A DNA stretch of 64,000 nt from Bryum argenteum (Eukaryota; Streptophyta; Bryopsida; Bryales; Bryaceae): the NCBI GenBank assembly GCA_037043015.1, contig CM073324.1, forward strand, positions 3,279,413-3,343,412, given 5' to 3'. The position numbers were made by a program, and so were the translations under genes. Under the pieces are notes generated by a model, which searched no databases, was not told the origin of the DNA, and saw only the letters and a list, made by a program, of their open reading frames with translations. Of the stretch, positions 371-56,920 are shown one piece after another (the first letter of the stretch is position 1; every line of letters begins with the position of its first letter).

Positions 371-740
371 TTAACCCTTAAAGGTCCTTCCACTCCTCAA
401 TGGGCAGCCCGAAATTGGATCTCAGCATCTTTTGGACTTGGGCAACATGAATAGTGCACTTCTTGAACTTGGGCAGCATGAATGAACCAATCAATGATGA
501 ATTTGCAACCTCCTACAAGGTTTTGTGCAATCCCAACCTACCTACCACAATCCTTTCAAAGTACAAATCACTCATACAAATTGCCATTTGAATTGTAGGA
601 TTTCACTTTTGTAGATGCATCACAAAAAGGTGACCAGAATGATATAAAAAAATATGTGAAAAATTGAGAATCAAAAGAGCTACAGGCAAGAGTCTGTTGG
701 AAAACAGCCCGAGGGGCTGACAGGCGCCTTTAAGGGTTAA
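371..740. mobile_element. piggyBac-like MITE, short subfamily, copy 1
   Basis: The 370-bp element begins TTAACCCTTAAAGG and ends CCTTTAAGGGTTAA, a perfect 14-bp inverted repeat that includes TTAA at both ends. No coding capacity is seen. The interior is clearly homologous to the element at 16644-17029, with shared stretches about a leading gggcagc/gggcatc motif and a run reading cctaccacaatcctttcaaa. TTAA duplication plus CCC-starting termini is the hallmark of piggyBac; Kolobok is the other TTAA-targeting superfamily and cannot be excluded. Confidence 0.8.
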
Positions 741-1211: not shown

Positions 1212-1464
1212 TTAACCCCTAAATTTCCTTGTTGCAAACTGATGGTCTAAGTCACAAAATTTGACCTTCCTTTAGATTAAGCTCAAAAATCTCAATCTAA
1301 GCATTATTTGAAAGATTCAACTGTAAGATCTCACATTTCACTTGACATTCTTCTCACATACTAAATTTGAACCGTTCATTCTTCCTCATCTATCAGATTA
1401 TAATGGTCAAAGTTGGCTGAGTTTTTCTCCTGCAAGAACCTCCGAAACCCGTTTCCAGTTTTAA
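1212..1464. mobile_element. TTAA-flanked MITE, degenerate, abutting the next element
   Basis: Starts TTAACCCCTAAATTTCC and ends at the TTAA of 1461-1464. In its body it matches the reverse complement of the cleaner element at 49223-49490: shared stretches include ctcaatctaagcatta and ggtcaaagttggctga. The 3-prime inverted repeat has decayed. Confidence 0.6.
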
Positions 1465-2065
1465 CCCTTAACTCTCCTTGAAGCGTGAAATGGATTTTTG
1501 CAATTCTGGGCAGCTTAGATGAAGGGGTTAAAAGTAATATTTTTGCCTCAGATTTTTATTGGGTTCTCCTTATATTGCAAAGTGTATGTGGTAAAATTTG
1601 TAAAGTCAAATTCCAATTTTTGAGTCTTCTAGAATGATCCTTGGGTTGCGAGCCGAGATGAGGCAGCTTCAAAAAGTAACTTTTTTAAAATTTGTTTTTT
1701 GAGACATGTTCATTACTAAACCATTACTTAAATTTCAAAGTGACTCAAGTCAAAAAGTTTACCAATTTTACAAGGGCAGCCTCCAAAACTTTCAAAACCA
1801 ATCTTTGCAATGCCCAAAAAAACTTGGGAGACAAACTTTGGATGTTATGATTTCTCAAATGGTAAACATCTGACGGTAAATTTTTTTAACAGTAATCAAG
1901 CATATTCTTAGGTACAAGATCTTACGGTTGGAAGTTTTAAAAAAGGAAAAGAAATTGGTTCACACCCCCACGAGTGCTTAGAGGTAGAGAATCGCAGTTT
2001 TGAGGTTTTGAGCTCCAAAAAACACCATGGAGATTTACCTAGGGTTAAGGAAAGTTAGGGATTAA
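1461..2065. mobile_element. TTAA-flanked MITE, long subfamily, decayed
   Basis: Runs from TTAACCCTTAACTCTCC to GGAAAGTTAGGGATTAA, an imperfect inverted repeat with TTAA at both ends. Its interior is homologous in the opposite direction to the element at 27058-27636, including ggtacaagatcttacggttg, and also resembles 46515-47450. It shares its left TTAA with the preceding element. Confidence 0.6.
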
Positions 2066-14062: not shown

Positions 14063-16341
14063 ATGCGGCGTAGGTCTGTACAATTGTTTAGTCAGAGTTT
14101 AGAAAAAGCCTTTCGAGGTGATTGCTGTAGGGCGATAGTAGGAGGTGCAGGCGGACTTGATCAAAAGTGCAGCAGCTCTTGGTTTAGGGTTTTTGGATTG
14201 GACTTATCGGTAGACACTAGTTTAAAGAGTAGAGATTCATTACTTGCAGGTAGGGCACGCTTTAGTACTCTGGTCGAGGAGGACCGCAACGAATCTCGGG
14301 GATATCGCCGTGAGATTGAACAAGCGGAGATTGTCCGTCGATTCGAAAAACTGCTTCAGAAGTGGAGCTCGAATACGCCCCTTCTTCTTGATGATTTGCA
14401 GGTGAATTCTCGTTACATTGTGCTTGCGAGCAGAGCTTGAAACCATAAATTCTTCGTCTTTTTGGCTTGATTCAACTTTGCTCAATTGATACTCTTACAG
14501 GTTCAGTTGACTCCGTCGTTAGTTTGTCAAGTGGTGAAGACGATTCCCAAGCCGACAGCAGTGCGAAAGTTTTTCAAATGGGCAAGCACGCAGCCAGGGT
14601 TTCAACACGATGTGTACACATACGCAGCGGTACTCGATCAGTACGGCAAGGCCAAGAATTTTCAGGCCATGGATCAAGTGGTGGCGGAGATGAAGGAAGA
14701 CGGGATCGCACCGAATGTGATCACTTTCACTTCGCTCATGTTCTGGCATTCGCAGATAACAAAACTGGCAGGAGTTCGGCGAATGTGGCAGCAGATGCAG
14801 GAAGCAGGTTGTAAACCCAACGAATACATCTATACAAGTTACCTTGATTCGCTTGTGAAAAACGGCTGTCACGAGGAAGCGAACACAGTCTTCCAGGAAA
14901 TGCAGAACGCGGGTTGTCGTCCAAATATATACACATTCTCGGTGATGATCCAGAGCCTTGTGGACACAATGCAACTGGAAGCCGCATTCGAGCTTTACGA
15001 AAGAATGACGAAGCTGGATTTCACACCGAATAGTGCAACGTACTCTAACCTCGTGAAGGCGCATGCCAGAAGGCCGGACTTGGAGAAGGCGATCTGGTTT
15101 TACCGGGAAATGATGGATGCAGGCTTGACACCGTCGCACTCCTTGCGGTCGCTGTTGTCGGCAGCTTTGACAGCTCAAGGGAGGGCAAACGAAGCGGAGG
15201 AACTGACCCATATTAGTGCAGCGATGGCGGTGGAGGATCTGAGGAGCAAGCAATTGAAAGCGGTGCTTAGTGGCTGTCTGCCTAGGCCAGAGAGACTGGC
15301 AGAGCTGTTGCGAGAGTGGGGACCTGACACGGAGCTGGCTCTCGAGAGAGTGAAGCTCACGATGCGGCATCCGTACCTGTTGAATGTGTTGGTGCTTGTG
15401 AGCGACGAGCCGGAAGTGGCGTGGCGGTATTTCGAGTGGGTGAGAGCTCAGGAGAATTATAATCCCACCAGGCACATGTTCGCTCGTGTGCTGGACATTG
15501 TTGGCAAGACGGGCCACACCGCATTGCAGAATCAGATCATCTCCGACGCTGAGACTCCAATGCAAGCAAATGCTGTCACTTATCACAAAGTCATCGAAAG
15601 CTATTGCCACTCGAAGCACACCGACGCTGCCCTTTTGGTAAGCACCTGCACTCTCACTAACCCCTGCAAGCAACACTATTCAGGATACAGAACTTGATAT
15701 TATAACGTATGTATTGGTGTGACATCGTCTTTACTATTTCCTCGTTGCAAGTCTTGGAAACAGGAATCGGTATTGTGGGTAGTGAACAGTGTTATTGCTC
15801 GATGCAGGTGTTTGAGCGTATGAAAAAGCAAGGAGTAGAGCCAGACGCGAACGTCTACACCATGCTGATTGATGTTTTGTCAAGAACACGTGATCATACC
15901 CAAGCTATGGAGATGTACGCTGAGATGCTGAAAGCGAAGTGCAAACCTACGGTCCACACGTACACAGTGATTCTGCACAGTTTGGCGAGGTCAGGGAGGG
16001 TGAAAGCTGCTCTGACTCTATTTGAAAGATTGCCCAAGTTTGGTGTTCCGCCAAGTGTAGGGACCTACACCATTCTACTGAGAGCCTGTCTAAAAGCAAA
16101 TGAGTTAGAATCGGTATTGAAACTGTACGCATGTATGCGATCAGATGGGATTGTCCCATCGAGGGGCATCCATAGACTGGTTTCTCGAGGTCTTCATGCT
16201 GCAGGAATGCATGACGAGGCAGATGCGCTCAGCGAAGTACCTGTTTATTTCCCGGAACCTCATAGAGGTGTTGTTCAACCTCGGATTCCAAGAGCACGGA
16301 AAAGTGTCTCTAGACTTGTGAGTAGATTCTATGAGCAATAG
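14063..16341 (+). CDS. P-class pentatricopeptide repeat (PPR) protein
   Basis: Three exons, 14063-14401, 14501-15637 and 15808-16341, give 669 residues. The N-terminus (MRRRSVQLFSQSLEKAFRG) is basic, Ser/Arg-rich and lacks acidic residues early on, consistent with an organelle transit peptide. From about residue 145 onward 35-residue PPR units recur (for example GCRPNIYTFSVMIQSLVD, GVEPDANVYTMLIDVLSR, CKPTVHTYTVILHSLAR). A repeat-poor middle part (about 330-430) separates two blocks. No E, DYW or SMR domain follows, so it is a P-class protein, probably binding organellar RNA. The RNA target cannot be read from sequence. An in-frame upstream TTG at 14054 is not needed; the ATG at 14063 is used here. 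Confidence 0.92.
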
Positions 16342-16643: not shown

Positions 16644-17029
16644 TTAACCCTTAAACGTCTAGCTATACGGATTTGGGCAGCCGAGTATTGGATCACAACA
16701 TCTTCTAGATTTGGGCATCATGAATAGTGCACTTTTTGAACTTGGGCATCATGAATGATCCAATCAATTGGGCATCATGAATGATCCAATCAATGATGAG
16801 CTTGCAACCTCCTACAGGGTTATGTACAACCCCAACCTACCTACCACAATCCTTTCAAAGCACAAAATCGCTCATACAAATTGTGATTTGAATTCTAAAA
16901 TTTCACTTTTTGGATGCATCGCAAGAAGGTGACCAATTTGATATCAAAATATAAGTGAAAAGTTGAGTACATTGAGGAGATTCTGTTGGATCATGACCCC
17001 TCCGGTCACCTTAGGCGTTTAAGGGTTAA
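16644..17029. mobile_element. piggyBac-like MITE, short subfamily, copy 2
   Basis: This 386-bp element has perfect 14-bp inverted ends TTAACCCTTAAACG / CGTTTAAGGGTTAA, including TTAA on both sides. Its body is homologous to 371-740. It contains an internal direct duplication of about 26 bp (gggcatcatgaatgatccaa occurs twice near 16744-16795). Confidence 0.85.
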
Positions 17030-25089: not shown

Positions 25090-25390
25090 CATGGATCCAA
25101 GGGAGTGTCTAAATATCCTCTACGAGCGTGGCTTGGATGCCAGGCTCGGGTGGGGGTGGGGAGGGTGGGGTAAAATCTCCCCCTATTTTTTAATTTGTTT
25201 AGGCCCCATTTGAACACAAAAGGGGCTTCCAAGGGTAATTTGGGGCCCCAGGTCCCAAATTTTGCAAAAAAAAATTCAAAAAATGGCCCCAAATGGGGGA
25301 AACGGGAAGGGCCAGAAAATTGATCCCCACCGAGCCTGGCATCCGAGCCACGCTCGTAGGGGAGAAATAAAGAGACCCTGGATCCAAGAG
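25090..25390. mobile_element. Foldback-type element with long inverted ends
   Basis: The left arm tggatccaagggagtgtc...tacgagcgtggc..gatgccaggctcggg is repeated in inverse at the right end (about 25328-25388) over roughly 60 bp with few mismatches. The interior is a GC-skewed spacer with no gene. This fits a non-autonomous hairpin element. Confidence 0.65.
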
Positions 25391-27057: not shown

Positions 27058-27636
27058 TTAACCCCTAAAGATCCTTGGGTGTTTTTGGGAGCTTAAAACC
27101 TCAAAACTCCAATTCTCTACCTCTATGCACTTCAAGGGGTGCGAAACAATTTTTTTATTATTTTCTTAACTTCCAACCGTAAGATCTTGTACCTAAGCCA
27201 ATTTTCAGTATCTGATATAAAAATTGACCGTTGGATGTTTACCATTTGAGAGATTATAACATCCAAAGTTTGTCTACGAAGTTTTTTTGGGCATTGTTGA
27301 GATTATTTTTGACACTTTTGGAGGCTGCCCTTGTAAAATTGGTACACTTTTTGACTTGGGGCCCTTTGGAACTTAAGTAGTGATTTGGTCATGAACATAT
27401 TTCCAAAAAAAAATCTCAAAAAAATACTAAATTTAAACTGCCCCAGTTCGGCTCGCAAACCAAGAATTGTTGTAGAAGACTCAAAAATTGGAATTTGGCT
27501 TTGTAAATTTTGCACTTTGCAGTATAGGGAGCACCCATTAAAAAATTTAGGCAAAAATATTACTTTTAACCTATTCATCTAAGCTGCCCAAAATAGCAAA
27601 AGCCCGATTTGGTCCTCTTGGATCTTTAGGGGTTAA
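27058..27636. mobile_element. piggyBac-like MITE, long subfamily, well preserved
   Basis: The 579-bp element has a perfect 17-bp inverted repeat, TTAACCCCTAAAGATCC / GGATCTTTAGGGGTTAA, with TTAA on both sides. Its interior is shared with 1461-2065 and 46515-47450 (for example aagttttttgggcattg and ccgtaagatcttgtaccta). No transposase is encoded. Confidence 0.88.
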
Positions 27637-27821
27637 AATCTTGTACTATTTGTGATATCATAATGTTTGAAGTTAGAAGTAATTACCTTTTTCCTAGTCC
27701 TGTAAAGAGATCCAAACATTTTACATGCCAAGAATTGATTTTAACGCTTGAAGATAGTAAACTCTGACTACCCAAGTTTCAAACACTAGCGCCGGAAAGC
27801 AAGGAGGGTTTTCACCTTTCG

Positions 27822-28178
27822 GCCCTAAATAAGCGATTTGGCAGGACATCCCCCAAGCCGGGACTTACCAAGTACCAACCTCCTTGCCCCCCAAATCTTG
27901 CCGGCCATAAAAAAATTTGGGAGTGAATTTGCCCCCTATTTTTTCAATTGTTGATGTCACCCATAATACCATTGTAGGGTCTCCCAAAAGTAAAATGGGA
28001 TCTTAGATCCCATTTCAAAACTCAAAGTTTCAAAGAAAGTAGTTGAAGGCCTCAAAGAATGAAATATATAAAAATGCCATTTTTTTGGCCGGGCAGGGAG
28101 TATGGGCGGGCAGGCGCTAGGGTAAGCCCCAGCTTGAGGGATGTCCTGTCCACGCCCAAAATAAGTGCCTTAGGGCTC
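27822..28178. mobile_element. Foldback-type element with long inverted ends
   Basis: gccctaaataag...ggcaggacatcccccaagcc..gggacttacc at the left recurs inverted at the right (ggtaagccccagcttgaggg then atgtcctgtcc...taagtgccttagggc), with arms of at least 50 bp and weaker pairing further in. The spacer carries ccctattttttcaattg, resembling a spacer motif of the foldback element at 25090-25390. Confidence 0.6.
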
Positions 28179-44698: not shown

Positions 44699-45817
44699 TG
44701 GTTTCGTTAAAACAGCTATCATGGTCAGACACTGACATTTAGCCTGTTACTGTGCAAAATGTCCATAAGCTTCGTTTCGTTCAAGCTGGGATTGATCTAC
44801 AGGATATAATGTTGACGGCCACACTTGGGCTATTTTGTTCACAAATAACTATTTTCAATTGCTGTAAGGTTACATCTCTTTCTTCCTCCAAATTTTCACA
44901 TTTTTAAGTATCAAACTTGGATCGTTGTATAGTAAAGTGAGAATAACATCGAATAATGTGTCAAAAGCAAATAGGGTTACGACGTGAGTTTTCTGGTGAA
45001 GTTCCTGTGAGTGACTTTAGCAAGGATCGTCACGCATCCTTCTTCTGCAGTGACGATCCTTCGAATCAACGTGAGGTGAACGTGAGGTGGACTGCTTAAA
45101 ACTGGTCAAAGCAATGTTGCTGTGGAGTCAAATTTTCAGTGAATTCAAAGTGAACGTTTTAGGGTTTTCCGAATATCTGCAAGTCCAACTATGGTAGAGG
45201 AACCTAAAGTCGACCACTTAAAGCGATTTTTCAGACATAATTGAGGCAGAATATTACGGGGTTATTTTTCTTGCATAGGGAAATAGGGTTCTCAACGTAT
45301 GGTCATTTAAAAATAAATTTTTGGGCAATATTCAAATTACCTTGAATTTTAGAAGCAAAAAGTGTTGGGCAATATTCAAATTACCTTGAATTTTAGAATC
45401 AAAAAGTGTTCTGAAACTAGTACACAGCCAGTAGGCTCACGAGAAGCTGCCAGTACGCACACGAGAAGCTGTGAATGAACTGAGATAAAATTGTCAATTA
45501 CAGTTTCCGATAGTCGTTCATACATGTGACAAGTGCCTGCCAGAACTACATACTCATCACTGATAATCTTGGAACTAGAAGTCGACCACTTGGTCATCTC
45601 GAAGTCGACCAGTGGTTCTACTCAAAGTTGGCACACATTGCAGCCACTTGCACTTCTCCTGAACCGGAAACCTGTGTTGTTTGAACTCAAATGTCTACGG
45701 AACTCACCCTGCTAAAAAGCTCACCCAGAGCTCACTGAGTGCGGACGCCGGATTGCGGAGCTCCTCGGTCGAGTTGGACGCTATCATAGCTTCAATCGAC
45801 TTAAAAACCCAAGCTTT
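44699..45817. other. Intergenic, small tandem duplication
   Basis: 3-prime flank of the proteasome gene. A 43-bp unit (gggcaatattcaaattacct...) is repeated in tandem at about 45323-45408. No gene seen. Confidence 0.5.
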
Positions 45818-46235
45818 TTACTTGGGGGTCCCAAGTGTTTACTTGGGGGTCCCAAGTGTTTACTTGGGGGTCCCAAGTGTTTACTTGGGGGTCCCAAGTG
45901 TTTACTTGGGGGTCCCAAGTGTTTACTTGGGGGTCCCAAGTGTTTACTTGGAGGTCCCAAGTGTTTACTTGGGGGTCCCAAGTGTTTATTTGGGGGTCCC
46001 AAGTTAGTACTTAGGGTCCCAAGTTATTACTTGGAGGCCCCAACTGTTTATTTGGGGGTCCCAAGTTATTGCTTGGGGGTCCCAAGTTATTGCTTGGGGG
46101 TCCCAAGTTAGTACTTGGGGGTCCCAAGTTCGTACTTGGGGGTCCCAAGTTTTTACTTTGGGGTCCCAAGTTGTTAGTTGGGGGTCCCAAGTTGTTAGTT
46201 GGGGGTCCCAAGTTGTTACTTGGGGGTCCCAAGAT
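45818..46235. repeat. Palindromic 20/21-bp minisatellite
   Basis: About 20 units of the form TTTACTTGGGGGTCCCAAGTG. Each core, CTTGGGGGTCCCAAG, is almost self-complementary. The first half has nearly uniform 21-bp units and the second more varied 20- to 22-bp units. It gives repetitive open frames on both strands by arithmetic of the period; I do not consider them coding. Confidence 0.97.
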
Positions 46236-46514
46236 TGAAGTCCGATCTTGTTTTATAATGCAATTCTCAATAAAAGCTAGGCGGCTGGTTGCTCTAAAAG
46301 AACCCAGAAGCCGCTAACTGAAGCCTCACATTTCGTTAAGCATCATGCCTACAAATCAAATCTGCATCCACCTTAACTGAACTCCCTAAACTCGGAATAC
46401 CACTTGGATAGCTCTTTAAATTCGGCCAAGATTAGCACCCTTCTACAAACTGCTTGGCCTCATTCACCAACCACGTCGAGATATTTTTCTCACAGGCCAC
46501 CACATGCCATGCCG

Positions 46515-47450
46515 TTAACCCCTAAAAATCCAGGAAAACCGATTCGGTTTTCTGAGATTTCGGGCAACTCATTTTAAGCATTTAAATTGATATTTTTGCC
46601 TAAGATTTTTATTGGGTGCTCCCCATACAGAAATGTGTATGTGGTATAATTTTCAAAGTCAAATTTTAATTTTATAACCTTCACCTAGAAATTTTAGGTT
46701 TCAAGTCCAAAACGGGCAGTTTAAAATTAATTTTTTTAATTGATTTTTTTTTTGGAAATATGTTCATTACCAAATTACTATTCAAATTCCAAAGTATCTG
46801 AAGTCAAAAAGTTTACCAATTTTACAATGGCAGCCTCCAAAACTTTCAAAAACAATCTTCACAATTTCTAGTAATTTTACATTTTTTTCTTTCAAAAATT
46901 GCCAAAATTCGAGATTTTGGATTTTTTCCAAGATTTTTATTTTCAAAATTCACATTATCATAAATGCACCTTCTTACCGTTGAGATTTTTCTCAAACTAA
47001 ATATATCATACGTGGTGCTTGTTTTACTATATGGCTGTTTTTAGACCTTCTTTCATAAAATATTTTACATTAAGGTCAAAAAGTGGAATTGGTCTCTAAA
47101 ATTTTGCATGAGCATACCCAACTTGATTACCTACATGAAAAAAAATGAGGGAAAAATATTTGGAATAACAATCATCAAGTTGCCCTTGGCACCATTTAGA
47201 CAATGCCTCTCACTCAGCGGCAAAAAAAAGTGTTGGTCAAACTTTGATTGTTATGATCTCATAAATGACAAACATCCAACGGTTGAAATTTTGACCGGTA
47301 CTTTGTATTCAAGTTAGGTACAAGATCTTACGGTTCAAAGTCTAAAACCAGAGAAAAAAGTTTTTCCATTTCCCCATTTCCCAACGAAGGTGAAAAATGG
47401 CAGTTTTTGGTTCTGGAGGTCAAGGAAACCCCTAGATTTTTAGGGGTTAA
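46515..47450. mobile_element. piggyBac-like MITE, long subfamily, largest copy
   Basis: The 936-bp element runs from TTAACCCCTAAAAATCC to GATTTTTAGGGGTTAA, with TTAA at both ends. The interior shares ggcagcctccaaaactttca and acaagatcttacggtt with related copies at 1461-2065 and 27058-27636. No transposase-like frame is present. Confidence 0.85.
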
Positions 47451-47824
47451 TTCTGTGACCCTAAACCCAATCACCGAAAATAAGCTGACGACCACCATTC
47501 TGAGATTAGATCGTGTATGTGGTTGGGCACTGGTCGTGCAAGTGGCGGCTACCTTCTAAGTCTAATGTATGGGTATGGAGACCCGGTCGACTTTAGGTTC
47601 CTCTACCATACAAGAATTTGTAACAACTTTCAGAAGAGTCTGGAAGTGATGATTCCAATAATCCCTTCCATGCTTTTGCAAATTGCTCACAGGGTTAACT
47701 TCACTGCCCAGAGATGGCTAAATTTGTGCCCTTAGTAATGCACCTCTAAACTTGTCTTACCTCAATAAAAAAACACTTGGAATTTTATTGGAGCACAATG
47801 TGTGCACCTGATTTAGTGACTTAC

Positions 47825-48380
47825 TTAACCCCTAAGAACCCAATCAACCATGGGCGATCCTGGTCGATCCCGGAGCTGTACCCGGATTTTAAAAAGATTA
47901 CTTCTTCTTCTTTCTTTCTTTCTTTCTTTCTTTTTTTTTTTTTTTTTTTTTTTAATTTTTTTATTTTACTTACTTTCCACAAATTTGGTGAGTTAAGAAC
48001 CATATTCAGTTTACAGAACCTCATTTGGATTCTTGGATTGTTCACAATAAGCCTTCAAACACAAACAGGGTAAGGTTTTCTTAATGTAAGAAAACTTATT
48101 ATTTTGGCACATTAATGATGTTCCTTATAGATTTCTAGTGGCCTCTCTTCAATTTATCATACAATATGTGATTTTAATCAATCATATTAATTTCCAACTC
48201 AATATGAAAATATACATTTTAGACTGAATTTTGAACTTTTAGTCATTTTAATTCATTATAAAATAAATTTATCCTATTTTAAGAAAGTCAATTGTATAGA
48301 TCAAATTTAAAGTTTACGGGATCCATAATTTATAACAAATCTAAGTTTTTCTTTGAACCCCTTGTGCCTTTATGGGTTAA
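47825..48380. mobile_element. TTAA-flanked element, left member of a contiguous run
   Basis: Starts TTAACCCCTAAGAACCC and ends ...CCTTTATGGGTTAA; the inverted ends match imperfectly. It contains a CTTT/poly-T microsatellite at about 47905-47955. The right TTAA is shared with the next element. Confidence 0.55.
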
Positions 48381-49226
48381 CCCCTATACGCCCTTGCCTA
48401 TCTATAGCCAAAAAAAATACATGTTCAAAAAAAGTGTTATATATGAAATTGAAGGTGATCTATTCAAATTTCAACTCTACAAACTTATAGTAGTCTTATT
48501 GTAAATCATGTGGACTAAATTTTAAATCATGAACCCTCATTGATTGGGAGATTATAACATATTAATACTAAAAGCAAGTTGTGAAATTTCATCATTTTCA
48601 CTTTGAAGTGAAAATACTACCAATTGAAAACAAACATATTGCAATCAAAAAGTCACCAACCAAAAAGTTGTGTGCCTTCATCAAAATGACACACTTGTAC
48701 CAAAAAAACTCATTGGCTCCTATAGTAGCCTTGCAACGGTGAAAATTGCCAAAAAATTTACAAAGGAAAAATAGTCCAAAACTACACCTCTTGCACTCAA
48801 ATCTACGTCTTATCCTTAAAACACCTTCAATCAAGTCTAAATTTCTACCACTAAAACTAGACTCTAATTGGAATCATTTCCAAAAAATAAAGTCAAAATC
48901 TAATTGTAAATGATGGAGATATAGCTCCTCAAACTTTTTTTTCAAAAAAATTCATGAAAAATGATTTTTAATTTAACAAAATCGGCTTGCAATGGCAAAA
49001 CATGCCCAATGTATGAAATCTCAAAATCAAAAGTTGTTGTCACTAAAGTGCATGCCATTAATTTATATATCATTGTATGGGTCTGCAATTTTCACCACAC
49101 AAACTAGACTTGATTCGGAACCCGACCCAAGTGATTTAGTCAAGAATAAACATTGTATGATTAAGTTATGGCTCTTCAAAGCTTCTTCCCTTCATTAAAA
49201 CAACCGCAAGGACGTGCAGGGGTTAA
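48377..49226. mobile_element. TTAA-flanked element, middle member of a contiguous run
   Basis: The left end TTAACCCCTATACGCCC pairs with the right end GGACGTGCAGGGGTTAA at 14 of 17 positions. The interior is AT-rich, with no recognised gene. It shares TTAA with both neighbours. Confidence 0.65.
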
Positions 49227-49490
49227 CCCCTAAAGATCCAAGAAAGCCGAAATGGCTTTTTGGGGTTTCCGCAGGAAAAAAAGTCAGCCAACTTTGACCT
49301 TTATAATCTCAAAATCGGAAAAAAATTAACGGTTCAAATCTGACATATGAGTATAGGGTCAAGTTCACTTCAAGATCCTACGGTTGGATCTTCTAATTAA
49401 TGCTTAGATTGAGTTTTTTTGGGCCTGAAGTAGAAGAGGGTCCTTTGTGATAATTTAGACAATTTTGTATCAAGGATCTTTAGGGGTTAA
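49223..49490. mobile_element. piggyBac-like MITE, small subfamily, well preserved
   Basis: The 268-bp element has a perfect 17-bp inverted repeat TTAACCCCTAAAGATCC / GGATCTTTAGGGGTTAA. The body is homologous in reverse to 1212-1464. Identical ends to the 579-bp element at 27058 suggest mobilisation by one transposase. Confidence 0.88.
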
Positions 49491-55848: not shown

Positions 55849-56396
55849 CACTACACAAGAGTTGTTAATTAGTGTTACAGACGTTAATTGTGAACTGTAA
55901 TAGTAAATGTCACACGTCACCATAGTGTTGTAACAGATAGATAGAAATGCTAGTAACTCGATGCCTAATAGACAAGGGAAAATTGGGACAATACTACTCC
56001 CCCATTTCGAAGGTGGACACTATAACTACGCTAGTTTCTAACTAGTTACTAGTGCCTTGAAGATACTTGATGTAGTATCCCCAAAGGGCTTTGAGGTACC
56101 CGTACAACAAAGTCCAAGGACCCCATCATAGTTGGGTGGACTATGGAAGTGTTACAACACTAATGGTTAAACCATAACATTACTGTAGTTGTCAGAGCAT
56201 GCAAAATTTCTTGCAAGTGGAGAATCTATTGGAAGTGATGCAATTGGTGGCTTGAAGAAAAGACAAGGGACATTGATTGCAATGGTGGTCCAAAGTTAAC
56301 AGTAATCTTAAGAGAGTTAAGAGACAGTGTTATTGACCAAAAGTTACCGGTTACAATAATCTCCATGTAATACTAATTAACAACTCTTGTGTAGTA
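55849..56396. mobile_element. CACTAcACAAG-type MITE interrupted by a SINE
   Basis: Inverted ends CACTACACAAGAGTTG and CAACTCTTGTGTAG frame a body homologous to 782-1095. The body is split at 55935-56147 by a SINE fragment absent from the other copy. Confidence 0.8.
55935..56147 (-). mobile_element. SINE copy, 5-prime truncated, nested in a MITE
   Basis: 213 bp matching the 3-prime part of the SINE at 25929-26291, beginning with the GATAGATAG tail (seen on plus strand). It is flanked by AGTGTTGTAAC (55924-55934) and AGTGTTACAAC (56148-56158), a slightly diverged target duplication. An internal stretch covering the cggcgtgaatgaagtgtcc region is deleted. Confidence 0.82.
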
Positions 56397-56483: not shown

Positions 56484-56920
56484 TACCGTAACACCATAGC
56501 TGGTTCGTTCTCTGCCGAACAAATCATTATCTTTTTTGAAAAAATAAGGTTCGTTTCTCGCAAATCAAATTTTTAAAAATTCGTCTCTATATTTTTAGAG
56601 AAAAAAATTTGGGGCAGAGAAGGGGGTTTATCTGTGGATGGAGCTTCATAATGACATGACTAATCAAGACTTGAAATCACTAGATTTGGCAGCAACATTA
56701 GTGGGGCCAGCGCATAGTTTCGTCATTTACCCATTTTTGGAGGGCGGCCCTGAATAAGTCCACAATTCCTCCAGAATCATTATACTCTCTTTTCTCAAAT
56801 TTCGGTTTATATTGAGATTATTTTTCCTGAAATTCGTTCTTGAAGGCATGGAATTTCCGATTTTTTTCGTTTGTTATTTTTGGAATTATTTAAGAACGAA
56901 CCAGCTATGGTGTTACGGTA
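56484..56920. mobile_element. Tc1/mariner-type MITE with perfect 28-bp ends
   Basis: TACCGTAACACCATAGCTGG then TTCGTTCT at the left is repeated exactly in inverse at the right. Counting TA as target duplication, the element is CCGTAACACC...GGTGTTACGG flanked by TA, the pattern of Tc1/mariner elements. No coding capacity in its 437 bp. It is unrelated in sequence to the Stowaway-like copy at 4000-4184. Confidence 0.82.

Follow-up and report, generated by a model that had tools for sequence, protein, structure and literature searches.

Miniature piggyBac-type elements and transposase-bearing relatives in the genome of the moss Bryum argenteum

PiggyBac transposons are best known from animals and fungi, and the superfamily has supplied, from an insect, a widely used gene-delivery tool. 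The closest described systems, T. ni piggyBac (6x67, 6x68) and Myotis piggyBat (9c0f), resemble the moss elements analysed here in their CCC-type ends, their TTAA duplication, a homologous transposase core with three aspartates in the same columns, and a C-terminal cysteine-rich part. The moss elements differ from both in their long N-terminal coding parts, in a conserved upstream module without a Pfam match, and in transposases that form a clade of their own together with metagenome sequences. They are also longer than T. ni piggyBac, at 4,950-5,791 bp against roughly 2.5 kb (given as 2472 bp in the excerpt available of PMC10803768), and their ends fit the 5'-CC..GG-3' termini given for piggyBac in a passage of PMC10045372. 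Short, non-coding, high-copy derivatives are likewise described as piggyBac MITEs in coral (PMC2872659, compared by its title only); the hosts there are animals, whereas the host here is a land plant.

The preliminary description of this locus regarded piggyBac as rare or unreported in land plants. This is right in part, as there are mentions at the level of annotation. In the portions available of these papers, PiggyBac belongs to the superfamilies found in every group examined, land plants among them (PMC4438587), is one of seven angiosperm MITE superfamilies (PMC10004981), appears in a plant superfamily list (PMC10794571) and accounts for 1,230 repeats, or 0.00% of the assembly, in a fern (PMC6890710). 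A further excerpt has piggyBac 'isolated from ... insects, fungi and plants' (PMC10813416), and others describe its use in plants as an imported tool (PMC10905368, PMC10794571). One moss paper (PMC10619864) was discarded as a mention, both hits in the text available being the word 'piggybacking'. Among the papers listed in searches of the open-licence literature, we found none on an autonomous piggyBac of a land plant. What we describe is a known superfamily in a host where it has seldom been described, and where it is abundant and has moved recently. The short elements presented below are very probably non-autonomous MITEs of the piggyBac superfamily, resident in the moss nuclear genome and moved by the transposase of larger elements.

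Miniature elements in the window and across the genome

The window, that is, the whole 64,000-nucleotide stretch that was analysed (G000:C4:3279413-3343412, from a genome of 258.8 Mb on 25 contigs), contains six clear and two degenerate TTAA-bounded elements with CCC-starting inverted repeats. By sequence they fall into families A (268 bp), B (586 bp) and C (370-386 bp), plus one 850-bp element:

371..740, + strand: family C element, 370 bp, with ends TTAACCCTTAAAGG
1212..1464, - strand: degenerate family A relative, inverted, 73% to 49223-49490; absent from the preliminary description
1461..2065, - strand: degenerate family B relative, inverted, 82% to the 27058 element over 533 bp; ends decayed
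16644..17029, + strand: family C element, 386 bp, with ends TTAACCCTTAAACGTCT/CCT; holds the empty TTAA of a family B insertion on contig C4
27058..27636, + strand: family B element, 579 bp (the 586-bp family with a 7-bp gap), with 17-bp perfect inverted repeats TTAACCCCTAAAGATCC
46515..47450, + strand: 936-bp family B relative, with ends TTAACCCCTAAAAATCC; 75% to the 27058 element over 353 bp
48377..49226, + strand: 850-bp element, one copy looked at, with imperfect ends TTAACCCCTATACGCCC / TTAACCCCTGCACGTCC
49223..49490, + strand: family A element, 268 bp, with 17-bp perfect inverted repeats; TTAA 49223-49226 common with its left neighbour

A script that pairs TTAACCC...GGGTTAA ends with matching inward sequence returned nine pairs when run over the window, namely the six clear elements (371-740, 16644-17029, 27058-27636, 46515-47450, 48377-49226 and 49223-49490) and three that cross-pair their ends or adjacent ones, against none in 100 first-order Markov simulations of the window. 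At least seven such elements had originally been counted; the seventh, 1461-2065, was missed by the script and has a degenerate right end, TTAATCCC, but belongs with the others by its likeness to the 27058 element. The best ends had been described as perfect over 17 bp, and those of 27058-27636 and 49223-49490 are indeed identical over that length. With up to 3 mismatches, the 17-mer TTAACCCCTAAAGATCC occurs 11 times in the window against 0.26 expected, and exact copies number 1,746 genome-wide (859+887), with none for the reversed control. Part of this total lies in a larger repeat and does not represent dispersed elements. Adjoining piggyBac-type elements have a single TTAA in common at 1461 and 49223 of the window and at G000:C3:19290764, C3:19635716 and C7:2310994, as if one element had inserted at the end of another.

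Genome look-ups with one query copy per family, in which the best 40 places were scored each time, gave at least 39 further full or near-full copies of family A at 98-99%, of family B at 98% and of family C at 96-97%. The first look yielded 2,231 (A), 4,534 (B) and 1,382 (C) places, which are candidates rather than confirmed copies. Among the first 100 sites listed for TTAACCCCTAAAGATCC there are 8 pairs, at 267-268, 579 and 586 bp. Families A, B and C thus combine the traits of MITEs, being short, homogeneous, high in copy number and bounded by terminal inverted repeats. Five family B copies were fetched (contigs C10, C9, C5, C4 and C2), all with TTAA on both sides; those on C10, C5 and C4 are identical over 586 bp, and the remaining pairs differ at 2 positions. 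Because these copies were picked from ten rows tied at the top score, they represent the young end of the family and not its average age. PiggyBac elements have apparently been mobile in the moss in recent times, to judge from such copies, and the homogeneity of the miniature families makes TTAA target choice in a plant genome directly measurable.

An alternative in which most copies are a satellite or segmental repeat carrying the motif by chance, rather than transposed elements, draws on the 34 exact TTAACCCCTAAAGATCC sites in the stretches that were read (the window and loci L001-L029, with 30 of the sites on contig C1), 20 of which have a common flank inside a larger repeat, and on the 21-mer TTAACCCCTAAAGATCCATGG, which has 54 of its 100 listed sites on C1. 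Yet that 21-mer covers just 108 of the 1,746 sites, the top-scoring A, B and C copies are spread over nine or ten contigs each with none of the 120 places on C1, and the five fetched B copies have unrelated flanks. We therefore consider such a repeat highly improbable as the source of most copies.

Target sites and transposase-bearing elements

Duplication of TTAA, proposed at the outset from the element boundaries, is seen in two independent comparisons of filled and empty sites, one of them for the 586-bp family B. The first concerns a 268-bp element that interrupts four units (L002, L017, L019 and L020) of a large C1 repeat, each with one TTAA on either side of it. The paralogous units in L007, L023, L024, L027 and L029 are empty and carry a single TTAA within ...TTTAGAGTTAAGATG..., as a single TTAA is also found in the units of L006, L008, L010, L021 and L022. 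Other units carry a different sequence at this position, such as GTTCAG or GTGAAA, and are uninformative on duplication. As the four filled units have one site in common, they count as one event. The inserted element has the length of family A, but only a 20-bp collinear stretch in common with it. In the second comparison, the filled site is a C-type end whose inner TTAA has received a 586-bp B copy (C4:18401616-18402201), and the window element 16644-17029 provides the empty version, GACGTTTAAGGGTTAA.

These comparisons bear on whether the elements might be Tc1/mariner- or PIF/Harbinger-type MITEs, with TA or TTA duplications and ends that merely resemble TTAA. Such MITEs are the usual plant types in the excerpt available of PMC10004981, and TA and TTA are both contained in TTAA. 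Filled and empty sites nevertheless differ by one whole TTAA, TTAA flanks both sides of all five fetched B copies, and the transposase-bearing elements with CCC/TTAA ends are piggyBac. There is consequently very little room for a Tc1/mariner or PIF/Harbinger origin.

The genome was searched with the PF13843 (DDE_Tnp_1_7) profile, and the best 116 of 775 first-look candidates were scored. All 116 exceed the curated cut-off, for a genome total of at least 116, and 93 are free of stops within the match, while the same search was positive in 0 of 14 control genomes. Six transposase rows on five contigs have a score of 258.4 bits in common, which suggests that their sequences are identical. Five elements were obtained with both ends, from 4,950 to 5,791 bp and with TTAACCC at every end, in keeping with the expectation that a DDE_Tnp_1_7 transposase would be found between such ends:

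C4 element: 4,950 bp, with ends TTAACCCTTAAACGCCC on both sides
C1 element: 5,199 bp, with ends TTAACCCTTAAACGCCC on both sides
C3 element: 5,412 bp, with ends TTAACCCTTAAGTGCCC and TTAACCCTTAAACGCCC
C6 element: 5,286 bp, with ends TTAACCCCTCAAGGCCC on both sides
C2 element, 7740885-7746675: 5,791 bp, middle read save 1,127 bp, with ends TTAACCCTTAAACGTCC and TTAACCCCTAAACGTCC

Upstream extension of five transposase loci yielded both ends at four and the 3' end only at T34, where TTAACC is absent from the 3 kb read upstream. The C4 and C1 elements match at 97-98% from end to end, apart from a single stretch close to the 3' end that does not align; outside the TTAA, the sequences on either side of them differ. 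The main frame is long and uninterrupted in the C1 copy (897 aa) and the C6 copy (1,187 aa) and is split over frames in the C4 and C3 copies, two of the four elements with a fully read main region. A candidate end beside the gene of L030, TTAACCCCAAATTCC, was rejected and is regarded as internal, because homology between copies continues past it. Close to its 3' end, the C1 element (L031, L043) carries a roughly 21-bp minisatellite, GGGAACTTGGGAACCATTTGC, which the C4 element lacks in the part that was aligned.

The 897-aa frame of the C1 element matches PF13843 at 1.4e-82 and, among PDB sequences, T. ni piggyBac 6x67 at E 2e-29 and piggyBat 9c0f at E 7.7e-24. In the alignment with the T. ni chain, its residues D572, D651 and D764 are paired with the catalytic aspartates D268, D346 and D447, and the three aspartates (D173, D251 and D363 of the alignment) are invariant in six of six moss rows. 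A C-terminal cysteine-rich domain is a trait of the piggyBac family; in this part, aligned here to piggyBat, three cysteines are invariant in the same number of moss rows. When ten loci were compared, the raw alignment near the second aspartate read TERF in L036 and TMDKF in L035, and the cysteine-rich tails of L030 and L032 were altered, a pattern to be expected where a large family includes decayed copies.

Structural comparison was carried out on a model of a metagenome relative, P0002, which is 64% identical over the searched region and stands in for the moss protein. With a mean pLDDT of 74.6, the model has 6x67 (E 2.5e-29) and 9c0f (E 1.6e-25) as its best structural matches. In its strand-rich N-terminal part the confidence is low (pLDDT about 53-67), and for this reason we name no domain there; the N-terminal region of the moss transposase had no match among the sequences of solved structures. 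In a tree of 54 rows, six moss transposases fall with 12 metagenome sequences in an 18-row group with 100/100 support, which includes none of the six named animal rows. The branches between the moss rows are long, and we therefore conclude that several transposase lineages coexist in the genome.

A module of about 90 residues, for which there is no Pfam match, precedes the main frame in the C1, C3, C6 and C2 elements. Differences between the C1 and C3 versions number 35/24/68 at codon positions 1/2/3 (p about 2e-6 against thirds, with sites taken as independent), and this concentration by codon position makes translation of the module probable, be it as a first exon or as a second protein. The alignment places an in-frame stop within the C4 version.

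The identity of the transposases also bears on the choice between piggyBac and Kolobok, the other superfamily known for TTAA duplications, which it has in common with the moss elements in the excerpt available of PMC9587614. According to the same excerpt, Kolobok termini are 5'-RR..YY-3', unlike the CC..GG found here, and Kolobok was rejected on these ends; furthermore, the resolved elements with CC..GG ends code for a PF13843 transposase. The original preference for piggyBac over Kolobok is upheld by the at least 116 DDE_Tnp_1_7 matches and by full TTAACCC-ended elements whose transposase is homologous to that of T. ni, and a Kolobok origin is exceedingly unlikely.

Matching ends and the proposed mechanism

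The subfamilies had been thought to have related ends and a transposase elsewhere in the genome. This stands for the 370-bp and the approximately 979-bp miniature families, whose ends are identical to those of autonomous elements at 17 of 17 positions; for the 268-bp and 586-bp families, the closest autonomous end seen agrees at 15 of 17. The end TTAACCCTTAAACGCCC of the C4 and C1 autonomous elements has 3,298 sites genome-wide (control 0), and the first 100 listed include 12 neighbouring inward-facing pairs at exactly 370 bp, other pairs at 270-863 bp, one at 5,199 bp, which is the C1 autonomous element, and one at 5,941 bp; outward-facing control pairs below 8 kb among these sites amount to one, at 7,805 bp. 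For TTAACCCCTAAACGTCC, the 3' end of the C2 and C10 transposase elements, there are 1,405 sites (control 0), and in the first 100 listed, 68 sites make up 34 pairs with spans of 974-989 bp, with no outward-facing control pairs below 2 kb among the same 100.

The A/B end TTAACCCCTAAAGATCC agrees with TTAACCCCTAAACGTCC except at 2 of its 17 positions, and its exact form was found at none of the 16 transposase loci with the 3' side read (L030-L039 and L045-L050). Eleven of these have a TTAACC-type end, weak in the case of L032, and L033, L035, L038, L045 and L046 have none within the stretch read. Exact A/B ends followed by C or G occur at 17 sites, none of them, by eye, within 10 kb of the transposases listed, a search for partners that is weak because only the first 116 of at least that number are listed.

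A cut-and-paste route would account for these observations. The larger elements (4,950-5,791 bp in the five resolved) would make a piggyBac transposase, which would recognise CCC(C/T)TAAA ends, cut the element out at TTAA and allow it to be pasted into another TTAA. On this view the transposase would be expressed and would act on these ends, and the 268-bp and 586-bp families would be mobilised in trans by the transposase of elements with ends equal or nearly equal to TTAACCCCTAAAGATCC. Taken together, the TTAA duplication, the transposases, the matching ends and the identical B copies lead us to recognise a piggyBac system that is resident in a land plant and has moved recently. If this is true, a native mobile piggyBac would supply plant-adapted transposases and ends, give insertion markers in moss and offer a test of how the superfamily reached plants, through old inheritance or transfer.

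Contig C1 and neighbouring features

Of the 116 transposase matches that were scored, 5 lie on contig C1 (44.1 Mb), which makes up 17% of the assembly and would be expected to hold 19.8 (p 3e-5). If the listings are complete for C1, which the order of their entries suggests, exact ends are likewise scarce relative to its length, with 85 of 1,746 against 297 expected for TTAACCCCTAAAGATCC, 38 of 1,405 (by eye) against 239 for TTAACCCCTAAACGTCC and 60 of 3,298 against 562 for TTAACCCTTAAACGCCC. One possibility is that C1 is a sex chromosome. Tentatively, and with somewhat more doubt than belief, we put forward a broader picture of an active, plant-resident piggyBac, in which an old and diversified moss transposase lineage with a Pfam-unmatched upstream module is still multiplying several miniature families at TTAA sites, reaching thousands of copies and largely missing the chromosome-sized contig C1.

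C1 also carries, in loci L002-L029, a large and apparently tandem repeat with a trapped B-type end, which is the source of the flank common to 20 of the 34 exact ends. Solitary exact ends on C1 were considered as elements that had lost one end, an explanation that was rejected since those 20 belong to the larger repeat.

Several further features of the window were recorded. Another inverted-repeat family, with ends like ACTACACAAGAGTTGTTAATTAGTGTTACA, has two copies, at 55850-56395 and 779-1098, and a 437-bp element at 56484-56920 has 28-bp perfect inverted repeats TACCGTAACACCATAGCTGGTTCGTTCT. Around the 46515-47450 element, 26-bp perfect inverted repeats TATGGTAGAGGAACCTAAAGTCGACC lie 2.4 kb apart (45190-47610), and tandem repeats at 45663-46111 read YLGVPSV, similar by eye to the YLGSPST of the C2 element (L051, about 769-1120). 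Other inverted-repeat structures are found at 25100-25379 (55 nt, 80%) and 27821-28169 (49 nt, 73%). An open reading frame at 14471-15697 encodes a PPR protein that places the host among the mosses, with best named relatives in Ceratodon purpureus (76%) and Physcomitrium patens (75%) and a further relative at 96% over 72% of the query.
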